From an archaeon (lineage in GTDB: Archaea; Thermoproteota; Nitrososphaeria; Nitrososphaerales; Gagatemarchaeaceae), in contig JAKAUC010000013.1 in assembly GCA_021827865.1 (NCBI GenBank), positions 248,001 to 312,000 on the forward strand: 64,000 bases of DNA, given 5' to 3'. This document shows, piece after piece, positions 23,770 to 34,982 of the stretch (positions are counted from its first letter, which is position 1; every line of letters begins with the position of its first letter). Made by a program: the position numbers and the translations under genes. Under the pieces are notes generated by a model, which did not search any database, was not told the DNA's origin, and saw nothing but the letters and a program-made list of their open reading frames with translations.

Positions 23770-24498
23770 TTGCTGAGGCTGAAACGAAGGGCGTCGGTCG
23801 TCGCTTCAGCCGCAGTCTTCGCCGCGGTCTACGCGGTGCTGGGGACCATCCCGGTCTCGAGGCTGGTCCTCGGCGCGGGCAACTTCCTCACCGCGAGCAA
23901 CTTCATCACCCCCCTCGCGGGGATGATGTTCGGCCCCTATGTCGGTGGGTTCGCGGCCATCGTGGGGGACCTCCTCGACGTCTATGCGGGTGTCATCGCC
24001 TTCAACGGCACCGGCCTCTCCATCATGGCGGCCGACCTGGCCACGGTCGTGGTGGCCGGCCTCGCCTTCGGAGGGAGGAGGAAAGCTGCCCTGGCGGTCC
24101 CCCTCGCGGTCATCGTCCTGTACTGGGCCGACCCGATTTCGGTCCTCTTCGTCGGGCCCGTCCCGTTCACCTGGCTTCACATGGTCTCCGTGGTCCCCCT
24201 GGCCGTGGCCCTGGCTCTGGAGGGGTCGGGCAGGATGTCGAAGCTGAACCCCGCGTTCGTGGTCAGCGTCACATTCGCGGCCCTGCTCTGCGGGCAGCTG
24301 ACCGGGACCCTGGTCGGCCAGGAGCTCGCCGTCAGGGTGTTCGGGACGCTGTCGCTGGCGGCCTGGCAGGGGACGGTCAAGCTCTTCTTCCCCCTATACC
24401 CGGTGGAGCGCACGTTCTTCACGGCCGTGGGGTCTGCAGTGTCCCTCCCTGTCCTGCGCGCGCTGAAGCGGAGGCAGGTCGCGCAGCGGCCGCAGTGA
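23770..24498 (+). CDS. ECF-transporter S-component-like membrane protein
   Basis: The 242-residue protein has six hydrophobic segments with short loops. Its N-terminal half (VVASAAVFAAVYAVLGTIPV, then NFITPLAGMMFGPYVGG and AIVGDLLDVYAG) resembles substrate-binding S components of energy-coupling factor transporters for vitamins or queuosine precursors. The ATPase and T subunits are not in the window, so it would use shared energising modules. TTG start. The next gene is an isocitrate-dehydrogenase-family enzyme 31-58 bases downstream. Confidence 0.6.
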   Translation: MLRLKRRASVVASAAVFAAVYAVLGTIPVSRLVLGAGNFLTASNFITPLAGMMFGPYVGGFAAIVGDLLDVYAGVIAFNGTGLSIMAADLATVVVAGLAFGGRRKAALAVPLAVIVLYWADPISVLFVGPVPFTWLHMVSVVPLAVALALEGSGRMSKLNPAFVVSVTFAALLCGQLTGTLVGQELAVRVFGTLSLAAWQGTVKLFFPLYPVERTFFTAVGSAVSLPVLRALKRRQVAQRPQ

Positions 24499-28135: not shown

Positions 28136-29776
28136 TTGCCGAAGTATCTTTTCGTCACCGGCGGGGTGATGTCGGGGCTCGGGAAGGGTATCATCACATC
28201 TTCAGTGGCGAAACTCCTCCAGCTTTCAGGGGCCAGGGTGACCTGCCTGAAGATAGACCCTTACCTCAACTTCGACGCCGGGACCATGAACCCGTACACC
28301 CACGGCGAGGTGTTCGTCACAGACGACGGGGGCGAGACCGACATGGACATCGGCAACTACGAGCGTTTCCTGAACATGGACATGTCGAAGTCCAACAACA
28401 TAACGACCGGTCAGATCTACAAGAAGGTCATCGACGACGAGCGGAAAGGCCTGTTCCTGGGGAAGTCCGTGCAGATCATCCCGCACGTCACCGACGAGAT
28501 CAAGAGGAGGATAAGGGACCTGGCGGAGAGGGAGAAGGTCGACGTCCTGGTGGTGGAGTGCGGGGGGACCGTGGGGGACATAGAGAGCCTCCCGTTCCTG
28601 GAGGCGTTCAGGCAGATGAGGATGGAAGACGGGCCCTCGAAGACCCTCTTCCTCCACGTCAGCCTAGCGCCTGAGCTGTCGGTCGTGGGGGAGATGAAGA
28701 CGAAGCCGACCCAGCACAGCGTCCAGGAGATGAGGAGGATAGGGATTCAGCCCGACGTCATGGTGATACGCGGTTCTCGGCCGCTCCCTGCAGACGCCAA
28801 GGAGAAGATAGCCCTCTTCACCAGCGTCCCGACGGAGAGCGTGGTCTCCGACCCCGACGTGGAGTCTATCTACCTTGTCCCCCGGCTGCTCGAGAAGGAA
28901 GGCGCCCTCCCCCCGGTCAGGAGGCAGCTCGGGCTGAAGGCCAAGGGCTCGATGCGCGCCTGGAACGACGTCGCCGACAGGTTCGTCGGCCATGAGTCGG
29001 CCGTCAGGATCGCCATGGTAGGGAAGTACGCCAACCTGGCAGACAGCTACGTCAGCGTGAACCAGGCGCTCGCCCACGCGGGGGCGGTGAACGGCGCGGA
29101 GGTCAGGATCTCGTGGATAGAGTCGGAGGAGATAGAGAAGGACGAGTCGAAGCTTCGCCAGATAGACGCCTATGACGGGGTCGTCCTCCCCCAGGGCTTC
29201 GGCGGGAGGGGCGTAGAGGGAAAGATCGCCGCGGCGAACAGGGCCAGGGTGGCGAAGGTCCCGTTCCTGGGGCTGTGCTATGGGTTCCAGCTGGCCAGCG
29301 TGTCCTTCGCCCGGCACGTCCTGGGGCTGAAGGGGGCGAACAGCACCGAGGTCGACCCGAAGACGCCGCACCCCGTGATCGACCTCCTCCCCGAGCAGCG
29401 CGGGGTGTCCGACCTGGGCGGGACCATGAGGCTCGGGGGCCACGACGTGTTCATCGAAAGGCCGAGCAGGGCGTTTGACATCTACAAGGCGGAGAAGGTG
29501 AGGGAGAGGCACAGGCACAGGTACGAGCTCAACCAGACCTACCTCAAGAGGTTCGAAGAGAAGGGGATGAGGTTCACCGCCTTCAGCGACAGCAGGAGGA
29601 GGGCTGAGATCATGGAGCTCGAAGGGCACCCGTTCTACATGGGGACCCAGTACCACCCCGAATACGTCAGCAGGCCCGAGAGGCCCGAGCCCGTCTACGT
29701 CGCCTTCGTCGAGGCCTGCGCCAAGAGGGCCCGAGAGTCGAAGGCGCCCGAGAGGCGCCGACGGCTAGCCCGCTGA
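28136..29776 (+). CDS. pyrG: CTP synthase (glutamine hydrolysing)
   Basis: The 546-residue enzyme has an N-terminal synthetase domain ([21 protein letters not shown]-loop, [19 protein letters not shown]) and a C-terminal class I glutamine amidotransferase domain with [10 protein letters not shown] (nucleophile Cys) and QYHPEY (His/Glu). It converts UTP to CTP. A CTTAATTA box at ~28106-28113 gives leaderless spacing to TTG 28136. Its last 12 bases overlap the convergent thiR gene. Confidence 0.97.
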
Positions 29777-30712
29777 GCGGGCCGCGGCCAGCTTCACAGC
29801 CAGCGCGGCGACCTCCTGCGCCCCGGCGGCGAAGAGATACAGGTTGGGCTCTATGCCGCTCCCCCCCTCGTCCACCACGGCGTCGAACCGCCCCGGCGAA
29901 GACTCCAGCCTCCTCCGCAGAGCGTCCACCGTGGAGTCATCGGACGCCGGGCGGGGGCGCGCGCCGACGGAGAGGACGCGCAGGCCCATCTTCTTCAGCT
30001 CCGCCGCGATCTTGCCGTCGTACCTCAGGTTGATGCATGCCCTGAACTCCGGGCGGACCTCCCTGGCGAGGAGCAGGACCCTGGCCATGTGAACCGAGGC
30101 CCCGGCCTCGGGCGTGAGCATCGCCTTCGCCCTCCCCCGGACCTTGACGATCCTTCCGGGGATCGCCACGACGTCGGAGGGGCTGGCCGCGTCCCCGGCC
30201 GCGCAGGCGATGTTGACAGAGACCTGGGGCATCACGCTGACGAAGCTGGGGGAGGCTTCCAGCAGACGGACGGCTTCGGAGACATCGGACACAGCCTGCG
30301 CCTTGGCGCCTGCCTGGCCGCCGTAGGCCCTGATGCAGACGTCGCAGTCGGCGAGGGAGGGGTACAGCGCCCTGTGGGCGCCGCAGGCCGCGCCGCCCCC
30401 GAGGATGCCGGTCCAGACCGCGCTGAGGGCTCCGACCCCTTCTTTCGCCCCCCTGGAGACGGCTGAAGCGAGCCGGGCCGAGTAGAGGTCCGCGTCGGCC
30501 CTGGAGACGGAGAGCCGGGAGAGTGCGGAGTAGGCCTTGGCGGGGGCCGACGAGAGATACACGCTGACCGAGGCCTGGGTCGTGCCCAGGAGCTGGGCGA
30601 TCCTGCTCTGAGAGAGCCCCTGAGAGCGCAGCCGGAGCGCGACCAGCTGCCGCATCGCCGGGAGGAAGAGGTCGGACATCAGCTCGTCGGGGGGCTGCAA
30701 GGTATAAGCCAC
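29765..30712 (-). CDS. thiR: ThiR-type regulator: HTH plus ThiN domain
   Basis: The 315-residue protein has an N-terminal helix-turn-helix (ALRLRSQGLSQSRIAQLLGT) and a C-terminal ThiN-like thiamine-phosphate-synthase domain (from ~residue 135: SVMPQVSVNIACAAGDAASP, VAIPGRIVKVRGRAKAMLTP, RACINLRYDGKI). Archaeal HTH-ThiN proteins (ThiR) repress thiamine synthesis and transport genes, sensing thiamine phosphate. It is divergent from an ECF S-component-like gene. GTG 30712 is used; TTG 30700 is possible because the TATA box at 30723-30731 is close. Confidence 0.8.
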   Translation of the reverse strand: MAYTLQPPDELMSDLFLPAMRQLVALRLRSQGLSQSRIAQLLGTTQASVSVYLSSAPAKAYSALSRLSVSRADADLYSARLASAVSRGAKEGVGALSAVWTGILGGGAACGAHRALYPSLADCDVCIRAYGGQAGAKAQAVSDVSEAVRLLEASPSFVSVMPQVSVNIACAAGDAASPSDVVAIPGRIVKVRGRAKAMLTPEAGASVHMARVLLLAREVRPEFRACINLRYDGKIAAELKKMGLRVLSVGARPRPASDDSTVDALRRRLESSPGRFDAVVDEGGSGIEPNLYLFAAGAQEVAALAVKLAAARSAG

Positions 30713-30750
30713 TTATTAGGCAGCTTATAAACAGGCACCCGGGCGGTGCC
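30703..30750. promoter_or_regulatory. Divergent thiR/ECF promoter with two inverted repeats
   Basis: TATAAGC (30703-30709) and GCTTATA (30723-30729) form a 7-bp inverted repeat; the right arm is also a TATA box in both directions. Downstream, between that box and the GTG at 30754, lies GGCACC-N5-GGTGCC (30734-30750). Both are candidate operators for ThiR. Confidence 0.5.
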
Positions 30751-30753
30751 AGT

Positions 30754-31362
30754 GTGGAAGGGACAGCTCCGAAGCGCGGCGGGGGCCCAGGGGTCCGGGC
30801 GAGCATCAAGCTGTCCGTGGTGATAGTGTTCTCCGCGCTCATAACGGCCAGCGTGATGTTCTCGATCCCGCTGCCGCCCCCCGTCTACGAGATCACCTGG
30901 TCCCCGGCGATCATAATGGCGCTGAGCGTCCTGATCGACGTCCCCACGGCTGCGGCTGCCACTGGGATAGGCGGGTTCATCGGCGAGGCGTACAACGTGG
31001 CGTTCAAGGGGGGCGGGTCCCCCATCTACCCCTTCGGGATGGTCTGGGCCCGGGTCCCGGAGGTCCTCATCATCGCGTGGGCGAGGAACCGCGGGACGAA
31101 GACCCTGGTGGCGGCGATGGTCGGCGCCACCGTCTTTGAGACCCTGGCCTTCTTCTTCTCCGACTGGTTCTTCTACGCCTACGGGCTCTTCTCCTACGCC
31201 GTCCCGGCTGGGCAGACGCCGCTGGGGTTGGCCTCGTTCGACTTTGCGACCATGGTGGACCTCGTCTATATCCCGGTCGCCTTCGCGATAATCAGGGCGG
31301 GGGCCCCCGCCTTCCGCAGGCTGGGGTTCACGCAGTACCACGGGTCCGGCCCCAAGAAATGA
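30754..31362 (+). CDS. ECF S-component-like membrane protein, candidate thiamine-pathway transporter
   Basis: The 202-residue membrane protein has about six spans, starting with SIKLSVVIVFSALITASVMF and including GFIGEAYNVAFKGGGSPIYPFGMVWARVPEVLIIA, a pattern like ECF S components. Its position next to thiR suggests uptake of thiamine or a thiamine precursor; this is inference from context only. Leaderless GTG start behind CTTATAAAC. Its stop overlaps the ATG of the AIR-synthase-like gene (ATGA), so they are translated together. Confidence 0.6.
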   Translation: MEGTAPKRGGGPGVRASIKLSVVIVFSALITASVMFSIPLPPPVYEITWSPAIIMALSVLIDVPTAAAATGIGGFIGEAYNVAFKGGGSPIYPFGMVWARVPEVLIIAWARNRGTKTLVAAMVGATVFETLAFFFSDWFFYAYGLFSYAVPAGQTPLGLASFDFATMVDLVYIPVAFAIIRAGAPAFRRLGFTQYHGSGPKK

Positions 31363-32402
31363 GCTTCAGCGGGAAGCTCCCGTCGGGCTCGATGGACGTC
31401 GTCTACAGGCACCTCGGGGCGCGTTCGAAGAGGGTCGTCCAGGGCCCGGGGAAGGGGCTCGACAACGCCGTCCTGGGCATAGGCAAGGGGATGGTTTTGA
31501 TAGTCACGGCCGACCCGGTCTCGGTCATCCCTGCGGTCGGAGTTCCCCGCTCAGCCTGGATGAGCGCCCACCTGATCGCCTCTGATTTCACTTCCGCCGG
31601 GGTCGACCCCGAGTTCGCGGCGTTCACCTACAACTTTCCTCCGGAGATGAACGCCGGGGACAGGGAGGGGTACATCGCCGCCCTCGGAGACGAGTGCGAG
31701 AAGCTGGGGGTCGCGATAGCGGCCGGCCACACCGGGAGCTACCCGGGGGCCGGCTACACCGTGATCGGGGGCGGGGTGATGTTCGGGGTTGCGCCCGAGG
31801 GCGGCTACGTCACCCCCGCCATGGCCCGGGCGGGGGATGTCGTCCTGATGACCAAACACGCGGGCATCGAGGCGACGGCTTCGCTGGCGACCTCCTTCCC
31901 AGAGTTCTCGGAGGGGGCGGTGGGGGCAAAGGCGGCGAGGAGGGCGCGGTCTCTGCTTTCGAAGTGCTCTACGGTCGCCGACGCCAGGGTCGCCCGGGGG
32001 GCCGGGCTCAGGAAGGCCGTAACGTCCATGCACGATGCGACCGAGGGCGGAGTGCTCGGAGCCCTGGACGAGATGTCCGCGGCCTCCGGGAGGGCCTTCT
32101 TTGTGGACGCCGAGAGCATCCCGGTGCCCATGGAGGTGGCAGGAATCTGTTCTGCCTTCGGCGTCGACCCCCTCCGCACCATGGGAGAGGGCGCGCTCCT
32201 CATCACCTGCAGGCCAGGACTGGCGAAGAGGCTCGACGAGGTCCTTCGCGGCTCGGGGGTCGAATCGACCGTCATAGGCCGGGTCGCCCCCGGAAGGGGC
32301 CTCTGGGTCAGCAAGGGGGGCGGGAAGGCGGCGCGGTACAGGGAGGGTCCCGACGCCTACTGGGCTGCCTACGACAGGGCCACCGCCCAGGGGCTCCGCT
32401 GA
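31359..32402 (+). CDS. AIR-synthase-related protein (PurM/HypE/ThiL superfamily)
   Basis: The 347-residue product has the PurM-fold layout: NAVLGIGKGMVLIVTADPVS, NAGDREGYIAALGDECEKLG, GGGVMFGVAPEGGYV, and a C-terminal half with TSMHDATEGGVLGALDEMSA and a glycine-rich TMGEGALLIT. The family includes AIR synthase, hydrogenase factor HypE and thiamine-phosphate kinase ThiL. The link to ThiR makes a ThiL-like or other thiamine-related step attractive, but AIR itself is the precursor of the thiamine pyrimidine, so several roles are possible. Coupled to the ECF gene. Confidence 0.78.
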   Translation: MSFSGKLPSGSMDVVYRHLGARSKRVVQGPGKGLDNAVLGIGKGMVLIVTADPVSVIPAVGVPRSAWMSAHLIASDFTSAGVDPEFAAFTYNFPPEMNAGDREGYIAALGDECEKLGVAIAAGHTGSYPGAGYTVIGGGVMFGVAPEGGYVTPAMARAGDVVLMTKHAGIEATASLATSFPEFSEGAVGAKAARRARSLLSKCSTVADARVARGAGLRKAVTSMHDATEGGVLGALDEMSAASGRAFFVDAESIPVPMEVAGICSAFGVDPLRTMGEGALLITCRPGLAKRLDEVLRGSGVESTVIGRVAPGRGLWVSKGGGKAARYREGPDAYWAAYDRATAQGLR

Positions 32403-32445: not shown

Positions 32446-33132
32446 ATGGACCCGAAGCTCCCTGACCCCGACGCGTTCGCGAAGAGGATACACGACACTC
32501 TGGTCGCCCCCGAGGCAACGGCGTCGGAACTGGCGGCGTTCTGCGCCACGGCGAAGAAGTACAGGTTCGGCGCGGTGGTGGTGCAGGGGTGCTGGGTCAA
32601 GGAGGCCAAGGGCCTGGTCGGGGACGACGTGAAGGTCTCCGCGGGGGTCGGGTTCCCCATGGGAGGGGTGACGGCCAAGTCGAAGGTGGCGGAGATCAGG
32701 GAGACGGCAGAGCTCGGCGCTGACATGTTCGACGTCATGCCCAACATCGGATTCCTCAGGTCCGGGATGGAAGCAGAGTTCAGGGACGAGATAGCCGCCA
32801 TGGTCGACGGAGCTGGAGGGAGGCCGGTGAGGGTGATGCTGGAGTTCACGATACTAGACAGGGAGCAGAAGGTGAGGGCGGCGAAGCTGAGCGAGCAGGC
32901 CGGGGTCGCAGGGGTGAAGAACTCCAGCGGCTGGGGGAGGGGCGGCCCCGCAACGGTTGACGACATCAGGCTCCTGCGGGAGTCGGTGAGCCCCCGGGTG
33001 CACGTCAAGGCCTCCGGCGGGATCCGGGACCTCGACAACGCCCTCAGCCTTGTGGACGCCGGAGCGGACTTCCTCGGGACGAGGGCGGGGGTGGCAATCA
33101 TCGACGAGCTGAGGGAGCGGCTCGGCCGGTGA
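32446..33132 (+). CDS. deoC: Deoxyribose-phosphate aldolase (DeoC-like)
   Basis: The 228-residue TIM-barrel protein has VSAGVGFPMGGVTAKSK, GADMFDVMPNIGFLRSG (with the catalytic Asp), the Schiff-base lysine in GVKNSSGW and HVKASGGIRDL. It cleaves deoxyribose 5-phosphate to glyceraldehyde 3-phosphate and acetaldehyde. The TSTGF loop is replaced by NSSGWGRGG, so a different substrate is possible. It overlaps the next PfkB gene, and a nucleoside hydrolase lies beyond. Confidence 0.85.
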   Translation: MDPKLPDPDAFAKRIHDTLVAPEATASELAAFCATAKKYRFGAVVVQGCWVKEAKGLVGDDVKVSAGVGFPMGGVTAKSKVAEIRETAELGADMFDVMPNIGFLRSGMEAEFRDEIAAMVDGAGGRPVRVMLEFTILDREQKVRAAKLSEQAGVAGVKNSSGWGRGGPATVDDIRLLRESVSPRVHVKASGGIRDLDNALSLVDAGADFLGTRAGVAIIDELRERLGR

Positions 33133-34034
33133 AGCCGATAGTAGTCGTAGGGAGCTACCTCACCGGGGTGACGATGCAGGTCGGCCGCCTCCCGAAGACC
33201 GGCGAGACCGTGGTCGGTTCGGGGTGCCTGCGAGTCCCCGGGGGGAAGGGGTCGAACCAGGCGGTGGCGGTAAGGAGGCTGGGAGGCAGAGCCAGCATCG
33301 TCGCGTGCATCGGGTCGGACGAGGACGGAGACCAGGCCTTGACGATGTGGCAGAGGGAAGGGGTGGAGGCGGGGCTTGTCAGGCGGACGTCGAAGCATAC
33401 CGGGATAGGCTTCGTAGTGGTCGACAGTGGAGGGGCGAACGCCATAGCCATCGACCCCGGCGCCAGCTGGGACCTCGCCCCCTCGGACATCGACCGGGCG
33501 GGGGAGGCCATCGGAAGGGCCGGTGCGATGCTGATCCAGCTCGAGGTCCCTGGCGAGACCGTCGCAGCTGCCAAGCGCAAGGCGAAGGAGGAGGGGCTCA
33601 CCGTCGTCCTGAACCCCGCTCCGTCCGCGCTAGGAGGCCTGGACCTCTCGGGCGTGGACGTCCTCACCCCGAACGAGGAGGAGTTCAGAGAGCTCACCGG
33701 AGGGGCCGAGTTCGAGCAGGGGGCGAAGGGGCTCCTTGCCAGGGGGGCGAAGGCCGTCGTCGTCACCCTCGGAGAGCGCGGAGCCAGGGTGATGACTGAC
33801 GGTGACTCATACTCGGTCCCAGCCCCGTCGGTCAGGGCGGTCGACTCCACGGGCGCGGGGGACGCCTTCAACGGGGCGCTGGCTGTGGCGCTCTCCGAGG
33901 GGGAGCCGCTGAGGCACGCCGTGAGGTTCGCGAACTATGCGGGGGCGCTCTGCGTCACGAAGCCCGAGGTCGTGGCGGCCCTCCCCAGGCGCGGGGAGGT
34001 CGACGGGTTCCTTAGGTCCGACGCGCTGGAGTAG
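33129..34034 (+). CDS. Ribokinase-like PfkB kinase
   Basis: The 301-residue protein has GGKGSNQAVAVRRLGG (sugar binding), VLTPNEEEFRELTGG and STGAGDAFNGALAVAL with the catalytic Asp, matching ribokinase closely. GTG 33129 overlaps the deoC stop (GTGA), so the two are cotranslated. With deoC and the nucleoside hydrolase this suggests salvage or catabolism of ribose and deoxyribose from nucleosides. Confidence 0.85.
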   Translation: MKPIVVVGSYLTGVTMQVGRLPKTGETVVGSGCLRVPGGKGSNQAVAVRRLGGRASIVACIGSDEDGDQALTMWQREGVEAGLVRRTSKHTGIGFVVVDSGGANAIAIDPGASWDLAPSDIDRAGEAIGRAGAMLIQLEVPGETVAAAKRKAKEEGLTVVLNPAPSALGGLDLSGVDVLTPNEEEFRELTGGAEFEQGAKGLLARGAKAVVVTLGERGARVMTDGDSYSVPAPSVRAVDSTGAGDAFNGALAVALSEGEPLRHAVRFANYAGALCVTKPEVVAALPRRGEVDGFLRSDALE

Positions 34035-34037
34035 CGG

Positions 34038-34982
34038 TCATACCCTGCCCCCCCTCAGCATAGTGTAGAGCATGTCGCGGAAGACCCGCTGGGAGGCCTC
34101 ATAGACCACCCTCACGTTGGGCTTCCTCTTCAGATACCCCAACTCGTCCACCCAGGTCACCCCCCTGGAGACGCCGTCGGCCGCGTCCACCTCGACGAAG
34201 CGGTCCCTGGTCTCGGTGGCCACCTTCGGGTTCAGGACGATGGCCATGGTGATGCTGTCGGGGCAGCTGGTCCCGTCCACCCCCCTCTCTATCTCCATGT
34301 ACTTGCGCACCTGCCTGTTCACGGCGAGGTAGAACTCCGACTCCTTGGTCTTCATCCCCCCGATCTCCTGGAGCTCGGGGACGCCGATGAGCCCGTGCCT
34401 CATGACGATCTCCCAGCCGACCATGGTCACCGGCATGCCCGAGTTGAGGACGATGCTGGCGGCGTCTGGGTCCACCCAGATGTTGAACTCGGCGGCCGGG
34501 GTCACGTTCCCCAGGTACTGATTGGATCCTCCCATGAAGTAGAACTCCTTCACCTTCTTTGCTATCCCCGGGTCCTTCCTCAGGGCGAGGGCGACGTTGG
34601 TCATGGGCGCTATCTCGACCAGGGTGATCTCCCCCGGGCTCTCGTTGATGGAGTCGATGATGGCGTCCACGGCGTGCTTCCTCTCCGGCCTCTGTCTGGC
34701 CCTGGGGAACCGCGAGTCCCCCATCCCGTCTGCCCCGTGGATGTCCTCCACCGTCCTCCACTCCTTGAGCAGCGGGTGCCTCGCGCCCGGGTAGACCGGG
34801 ACCTTCCCCGACTCCCCTGAGAGCTCGACGGTGTAGAGGGCATTCTCGACCTCCTGGTCGAAGTTGATGTTGCCGCAGTTGATCGTGATCCCTTCGAGCC
34901 TCGCGTCCTTGGCCCTCAGGGCCATCATGATGGCGATGGTGTCGTCCCCGGCGGTGTCCGTATCCAATATGATCCTCTTCAT
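34038..34982 (-). CDS. Inosine/uridine-preferring nucleoside hydrolase
   Basis: The 314-residue enzyme has the N-terminal calcium motif DTDTAGDDTIAIMMAL (DTDxGxDD family) and later EIAPMTNVAL, FYFMGGSNQYLGNVTPAAEFN with Asn and Asp metal ligands, FVEVDAADG near the C-terminus. It hydrolyses the N-glycosidic bond of nucleosides to free ribose. It is convergent with the ribokinase-like gene, three bases between stops, and has a TATA-like element at ~35009-35016. Confidence 0.9.
   Translation of the reverse strand: MKRIILDTDTAGDDTIAIMMALRAKDARLEGITINCGNINFDQEVENALYTVELSGESGKVPVYPGARHPLLKEWRTVEDIHGADGMGDSRFPRARQRPERKHAVDAIIDSINESPGEITLVEIAPMTNVALALRKDPGIAKKVKEFYFMGGSNQYLGNVTPAAEFNIWVDPDAASIVLNSGMPVTMVGWEIVMRHGLIGVPELQEIGGMKTKESEFYLAVNRQVRKYMEIERGVDGTSCPDSITMAIVLNPKVATETRDRFVEVDAADGVSRGVTWVDELGYLKRKPNVRVVYEASQRVFRDMLYTMLRGGRV

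Follow-up and report, generated by a model that had tools for sequence, protein, structure and literature searches.

This locus raises the question of what a PurM-fold protein contributes, beside a thiamine regulator and a small membrane protein, to a soil archaeon that is unable to make vitamin B1. Below, the window is the whole 64 kb stretch of DNA that was analysed, G000 is the genome that contains it, and other G and L numbers denote the genomes and loci compared. The sequence-only reading had described a ThiN-domain regulator (ThiR) divergent from an ATGA-coupled pair, an S-component-like membrane protein (MEM) and a PurM-fold protein (PURM), and had proposed a possible uncharacterised thiamine module. 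The three-gene anatomy was confirmed; the overlap that couples MEM to PURM lies at 31359-31362 (Table 1). The module, in which ThiR controls an ECF-type permease together with a PurM-fold protein that is uncharacterised, is likewise well supported, and we hold it with high confidence.

Table 1. Features of the candidate thiamine module, in window coordinates
Feature	Position	Strand	Basis or remark
ThiR-like regulator	29765..30700	-	N-terminal HTH and C-terminal ThiN domain
Probable ThiR operator ATAAGCCACTTAT	30704..30716		Palindrome conserved in relatives
Near-palindromic TATA box TTATAAA	30725..30731		Invariant TTATA columns in 10 promoters
GGCACC-N5-GGTGCC inverted repeat	30734..30750		Probably non-functional
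MEM, ECF-type S-component, probable thiamine importer subunit	30754..31362	+	Fold and context
PURM, clade A PurM-fold ATP-utilising protein, candidate thiamine kinase	31359..32402	+	AIRS/AIRS_C domains; own clade

The named relatives of the locus are metagenome-assembled genomes (MAGs) of Thaumarchaeota and Candidatus Gagatemarchaeum. The order to which G000 belongs also includes ThiC-bearing genomes without EcfT that were read as ammonia oxidisers; the window organism appears to be a Nitrososphaeria archaeon outside this presumed ammonia-oxidising group. The layout of ThiR facing MEM and the PURM homolog (MEM-A, where A stands for clade A, defined below) was found again in G199, G146, G169, G096 and L102-L104, and in G163 with a methyltransferase gene inserted. 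Genes for DeoC, a ribokinase-like protein and a nucleoside hydrolase adjoin the module at 32446-34982. These genes lie beside A in G199, G163, L102 and L103 and not in G146, G169, G175 or G096; they were rejected as part of the module and are probably a separate nucleoside-degradation cluster.

Two inverted repeats had been pointed out in the shared promoter. Both exist, and only the ATAAG-NNN-CTTAT palindrome is conserved. This perfect palindrome has a single match in the 64 kb at up to one mismatch, compared to 0.20 expected, and it is conserved in ten aligned promoters that share 14 invariant columns, namely ATAA, followed by an ACTTATT-like block, followed by TTATA. One of the ten is that of G026, in which the palindrome precedes MEM-A though ThiR sits elsewhere, so that the operator is in trans. 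The motif is also present at the ThiR/ThiW-like loci L192/L193, and it is perfect or nearly so in G151 and G192, where ThiR faces a 174-aa ThiW-like protein with a CytX-like gene downstream of it (the names ThiW and CytX come from sequence reading). It is degenerate in G199 and L102 and absent from L039 of G175, a genome that has MEM-A and no ThiN-domain protein; ThiR and its operator have been lost there and MEM-A kept, possibly as an unregulated pair. The palindrome is likely to be the ThiR operator, as predicted from this pattern of conservation. The second repeat lies between the TATA box and the start codon, was not conserved in any of the nine relatives in the promoter alignment, and was ruled out as an operator for this reason; it is probably a chance occurrence in GC-rich DNA. 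Measured from the TTATAAA box, the GTG start of MEM is 26 nt away and the proposed TTG start of ThiR 28 nt; given these distances, one box may serve both divergent genes, with both mRNAs leaderless. The Rfam search of the window revealed no TPP riboswitch.

ThiR is the sole ThiN-domain protein in G000. The domain (PF10120, E 2.4e-44, 151 bits, cut-off 25) occupies residues 144-306 of the 315-aa open reading frame and matches the ThiN-domain structures 2php and 2pb9 by sequence, HTH matches fall at approximately residues 20-55, and profile searches found no ThiD domain. The annotated GTG start, at 30712, falls within the operator. Because ThiR homologs start with M(H/Q)PPDELM, the TTG at 30698-30700 is the probable true start. 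Archaeal ThiR regulons have reportedly been described for Crenarchaeota, Halobacteria and Thermococci. The present system resembles them in having an HTH and ThiN-domain regulator beside thiamine genes and a palindromic operator, but differs in its host, a Gagatemarchaeaceae-like member of Nitrososphaeria, in the operator motif, and in its targets, MEM and clade A. Members of the published ThiR family act as repressors, and we assume the same direction of effect here.

The description of MEM as an S-component-like membrane protein was borne out by its predicted fold. In the Foldseek comparison of the AlphaFold2 model (pLDDT 86) with the PDB, the top match was ThiT (4tkr, E 7.9e-4, probability 1.0), and nearly all of the best 17 matches were S-components; on this model, the S-component fold is secure. 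The fold does not fix the ligand because RibU scores similarly to ThiT. Like ThiT and other ECF S-components, MEM combines this fold with a thiamine-gene partner and with an EcfT (CbiQ family) scoring above the cut-off in the genome; unlike ThiT/YuaJ, it has no sequence match to that family (TIGR02357/PF09515) or to any Pfam family, S-component families included. In L108 and L121, the gene of a MEM-like protein separates a TPP riboswitch from clade A; in L134 the order is TPP riboswitch, ThiT (TIGR02357, 146 bits), clade A. We infer from this context that MEM is probably a subunit of a thiamine importer. The riboswitches that precede the transporter and clade A at these three loci (L108:3850-3964, L121:3770-3882, L134:7197-7312) score over the Rfam cut-off; the source MAGs are labelled Bathyarchaeota and Thermoproteota, and MAG contamination is possible. 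To our knowledge, archaeal TPP riboswitches had been regarded as confined to Thermoplasmatales. A second small membrane protein in the window (23770-24498) weakly matches a folate-family ECF S-component model (18 bits, E 0.0016).

For PURM, composed of the Pfam domains AIRS and AIRS_C, the profile scores were 70 bits for thiL (cut-off 184), 60 for hypE and 44 for selD, with nothing against purM at E up to 1; the best profile match in the PDB was HypE, with 88 bits. The AlphaFold2 model (pLDDT 92.5) matches the folds of ThiL, HypE and SelD about equally, and its top Foldseek match is AaThiL with TMP. In two maximum-likelihood trees, PURM belongs to a clade of its own, designated clade A, apart from canonical ThiL, HypE, SelD and a further clade B. 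The support for clade A is 99/99 in the first tree; in the second tree, the full set receives 95/62, and a group of 45 of the 47 rows receives 100/98. Clade A retains D35, D52, D76 and D226, acidic residues common to ThiL, HypE and SelD, and has its own invariant residues E112, C113, Y128, K166 and F267; of these, C113 has a Cys counterpart in E. coli SelD, and K166 is common to clade B and SelD.

The trees did not place PURM firmly with HypE or with the PurM of purine synthesis, the outcome that had been named as evidence against a thiamine role. HypE and SelD, as well as PurM-like1, which we take to be the CDD subgroup of PurM-like proteins of unknown function, have the same fold as clade A. 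The identification of PURM as HypE was rejected on the tree and on the C-terminal PRIC Cys, present in 3/3 HypE rows and absent in clade A; as SelD, on the tree and on the lack of Cys in the N-terminal region, compared to the catalytic Cys/Sec and Lys near the N-terminus of SelD; as PurM (AIR synthetase), on the missing purM profile match and on E. coli PurM, which was placed, in the first tree only, far outside clade A. Furthermore, the context of clade A is thiamine genes, as opposed to hydrogenase or selenium genes. The suggestion that PURM might be a ThiL-like kinase also failed. Clade A shares with ThiL the fold, the acidic residues and the thiamine context; however, it forms a separate clade, scores below the thiL cut-off, has GGH in place of GGD and lacks the GGEEY block (both ThiL motifs are invariant or nearly so), and coexists in G000 with a canonical ThiL (C13:695890-696834, 234 bits).

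One alternative, which we consider improbable, makes clade A a divergent TMP kinase that exists in addition to ThiL, as its analogue. Such an enzyme would agree with the common fold, with the AaThiL-TMP match and with the frequent coupling of the TMP synthases ThiN and ThiE to clade A, but 39/40 clade A genomes already encode canonical ThiL, GGD is replaced and GGEEY missing in clade A, and an enzyme of this kind would provide no TMP where a TMP synthase is lacking.

The paralog of PURM in G000 that represents clade B (C20:507191-508198, L032:7192-8199; also given as C20:507209-508183) is approximately 34% identical to it and shares the MHD(A/C)TEGG motif. Clade B has different neighbours from clade A, and a TPP riboswitch was found by Rfam in 0/5 clade B loci. 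Elsewhere, clade B adjoins ECF S-components (L044, L042, L056) or EcfA/EcfT-like genes (L066, L059), and in L064 it overlaps a NadC-like gene. No description of clade A was found in the literature searched.

The link of clade A to thiamine is strong. The survey covered 76 clade A loci drawn from many phyla: a recognised thiamine gene lay no more than three genes away in 55, a riboswitch-like motif lay upstream in 52, and 66 showed one or the other. Rfam placed a TPP riboswitch in 27/30 clade A loci, often directly before A; these 30 were picked mostly for a suggestive motif or context, so that 27/30 tells how often a riboswitch was confirmed at such loci and does not estimate its frequency in the population. 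Riboswitches were counted as confirmed on Rfam results only, and the motifs found by regular expression at L103 and L154 failed Rfam. Clade A adjoins ThiN, ThiD-ThiN, ThiE, TenA, ThiT or ThiR in many lineages, which for ThiN, ThiD-ThiN, ThiE and TenA are unrelated ones. In Nitrososphaeria, the neighbours are stand-alone ThiN (G013, G017, G018), ThiD-ThiN (G008), ThiE (G041) and ThiE-ThiD-TenA (G038), as named by sequence reading, partly backed by family searches for ThiN, ThiD and ThiE.

A different arrangement, in which clade A is flanked by a methyltransferase and a ThiE-like protein, with or without a Trm112-like protein, was found in about 32 loci of Bacteroidota and a few other phyla, mostly under TPP riboswitches. 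The Bacteroidota examples lie among L126-L181, e.g., L163:7060-9945, and the trio also occurs in Bipolaricaulota and in Kryptonia, with no riboswitch found in the latter. At 85 bits (thiE cut-off 145), the ThiE-like protein is a divergent one, and the operon possibly represents an unrecognised thiamine route. Clade A could then activate a thiamine breakdown product or precursor, the window locus being a remnant of this fuller route joined to a precursor transporter. Besides the operon itself, two loci are in line with this: in L156, the operon comes after a transporter with an NMT1/THI5-like binding protein, and in G163, which belongs to the family of the window, the transporter, methyltransferase, A and ThiE-like genes are consecutive. 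We nevertheless regard it as improbable, as the methyltransferase and the ThiE-like protein are absent beside A in the window and its sister loci, not a single TMP-TENI match was obtained in G000, and riboswitches commonly precede clade A by itself. In G163, which has no clear ThiD, the ThiE-like gene (L041:8055-8684) comes immediately after clade A.

The biosynthesis genes were checked by family search. In the six genomes of the window genus (88-100% complete), no ThiC, ThiD, ThiE, ThiN synthase or TPK was detected, whereas canonical ThiL is present in 6/6. The TMP on which ThiL acts must therefore come from outside or from thiamine. The gene absences also make imported thiamine a likelier substrate for PURM than the thiamine precursor that the sequence-only reading had suggested. 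Of 40 further clade A genomes, 39 encode ThiL and 36 lack TPK; the co-occurrence of ThiL with clade A is partly trivial. TPK is present in 6/10 bacterial controls and 4/29 bacterial clade A genomes (Fisher p 0.009), and ThiM in 8/14 controls and, as a convincing match, 0/56 clade A genomes (p 3e-7), with controls that are not phylogeny-matched in both comparisons. The best ThiM-profile score in clade A genomes was 42 bits, and scores up to this value were read as ribokinase-superfamily cross-matches.

The absence of ThiM bears on a third alternative, namely that clade A is a hydroxyethylthiazole kinase that replaces ThiM in precursor salvage and has at most a side activity on thiamine. It accounts for the Bacillota loci L139 and L147, where A heads an A-ThiD-ThiE-TenA array at the position where ThiM might be expected. 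This alternative is unlikely, if somewhat less so than the two preceding ones: thiazole phosphate would be useless in the window genus and in the f13 genomes, which have no ThiD, ThiE or ThiN synthase, and in L134 clade A is paired with ThiT, of the thiamine transporter family.

The combination of a transporter, clade A and ThiL, and of these alone, is sensible if clade A produces TMP from thiamine. We propose that, when thiamine phosphates are plentiful, ThiR would bind ATAAG-NNN-CTTAT by the TATA box and repress MEM-A as well as its own gene; a shortage of these phosphates would allow both to be expressed. MEM would borrow the EcfT/EcfA of the genome and import thiamine, clade A would transfer a phosphate from ATP to the hydroxyethyl group of the thiazole ring, yielding thiamine monophosphate, and canonical ThiL, encoded elsewhere, would convert TMP to TPP. 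Taken in full, as a ThiR-repressed operon for thiamine uptake and salvage in a thiamine auxotroph, this reading is about evenly balanced between right and wrong. We infer the phosphorylation of thiamine by clade A from the same evidence, and hold it a little short of even. It should be noted that we know of no PurM-fold enzyme that phosphorylates an alcohol, which counts against a kinase, that simple phosphorylation of thiamine leaves the Bacteroidota methyltransferase operon unaccounted for, and that the comparison of predicted folds favours ThiL no more than HypE or SelD. ThiK-like (APH-fold) kinases are a different possible source of TMP.

Many apparent non-makers of vitamin B1 have ThiL and no thiamine pyrophosphokinase, and the source of their TMP is unclear. 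Clade A, with relatives across archaea and bacteria under vitamin B1 control, is a good candidate for the enzyme that supplies the missing phosphorylation of thiamine. In general terms, it may be, with just under even confidence, an undescribed family of PurM-fold kinases of thiamine (or of its thiazole moiety), found in archaea and bacteria under TPP riboswitches or ThiR, that fills the gap where ThiL is present but neither TPK nor a TMP synthase is. If so, a riboswitch-controlled kinase family common to archaea and Bacteroidota would close the TMP gap, predictions of auxotrophy would change, and the PurM fold would gain an activity.
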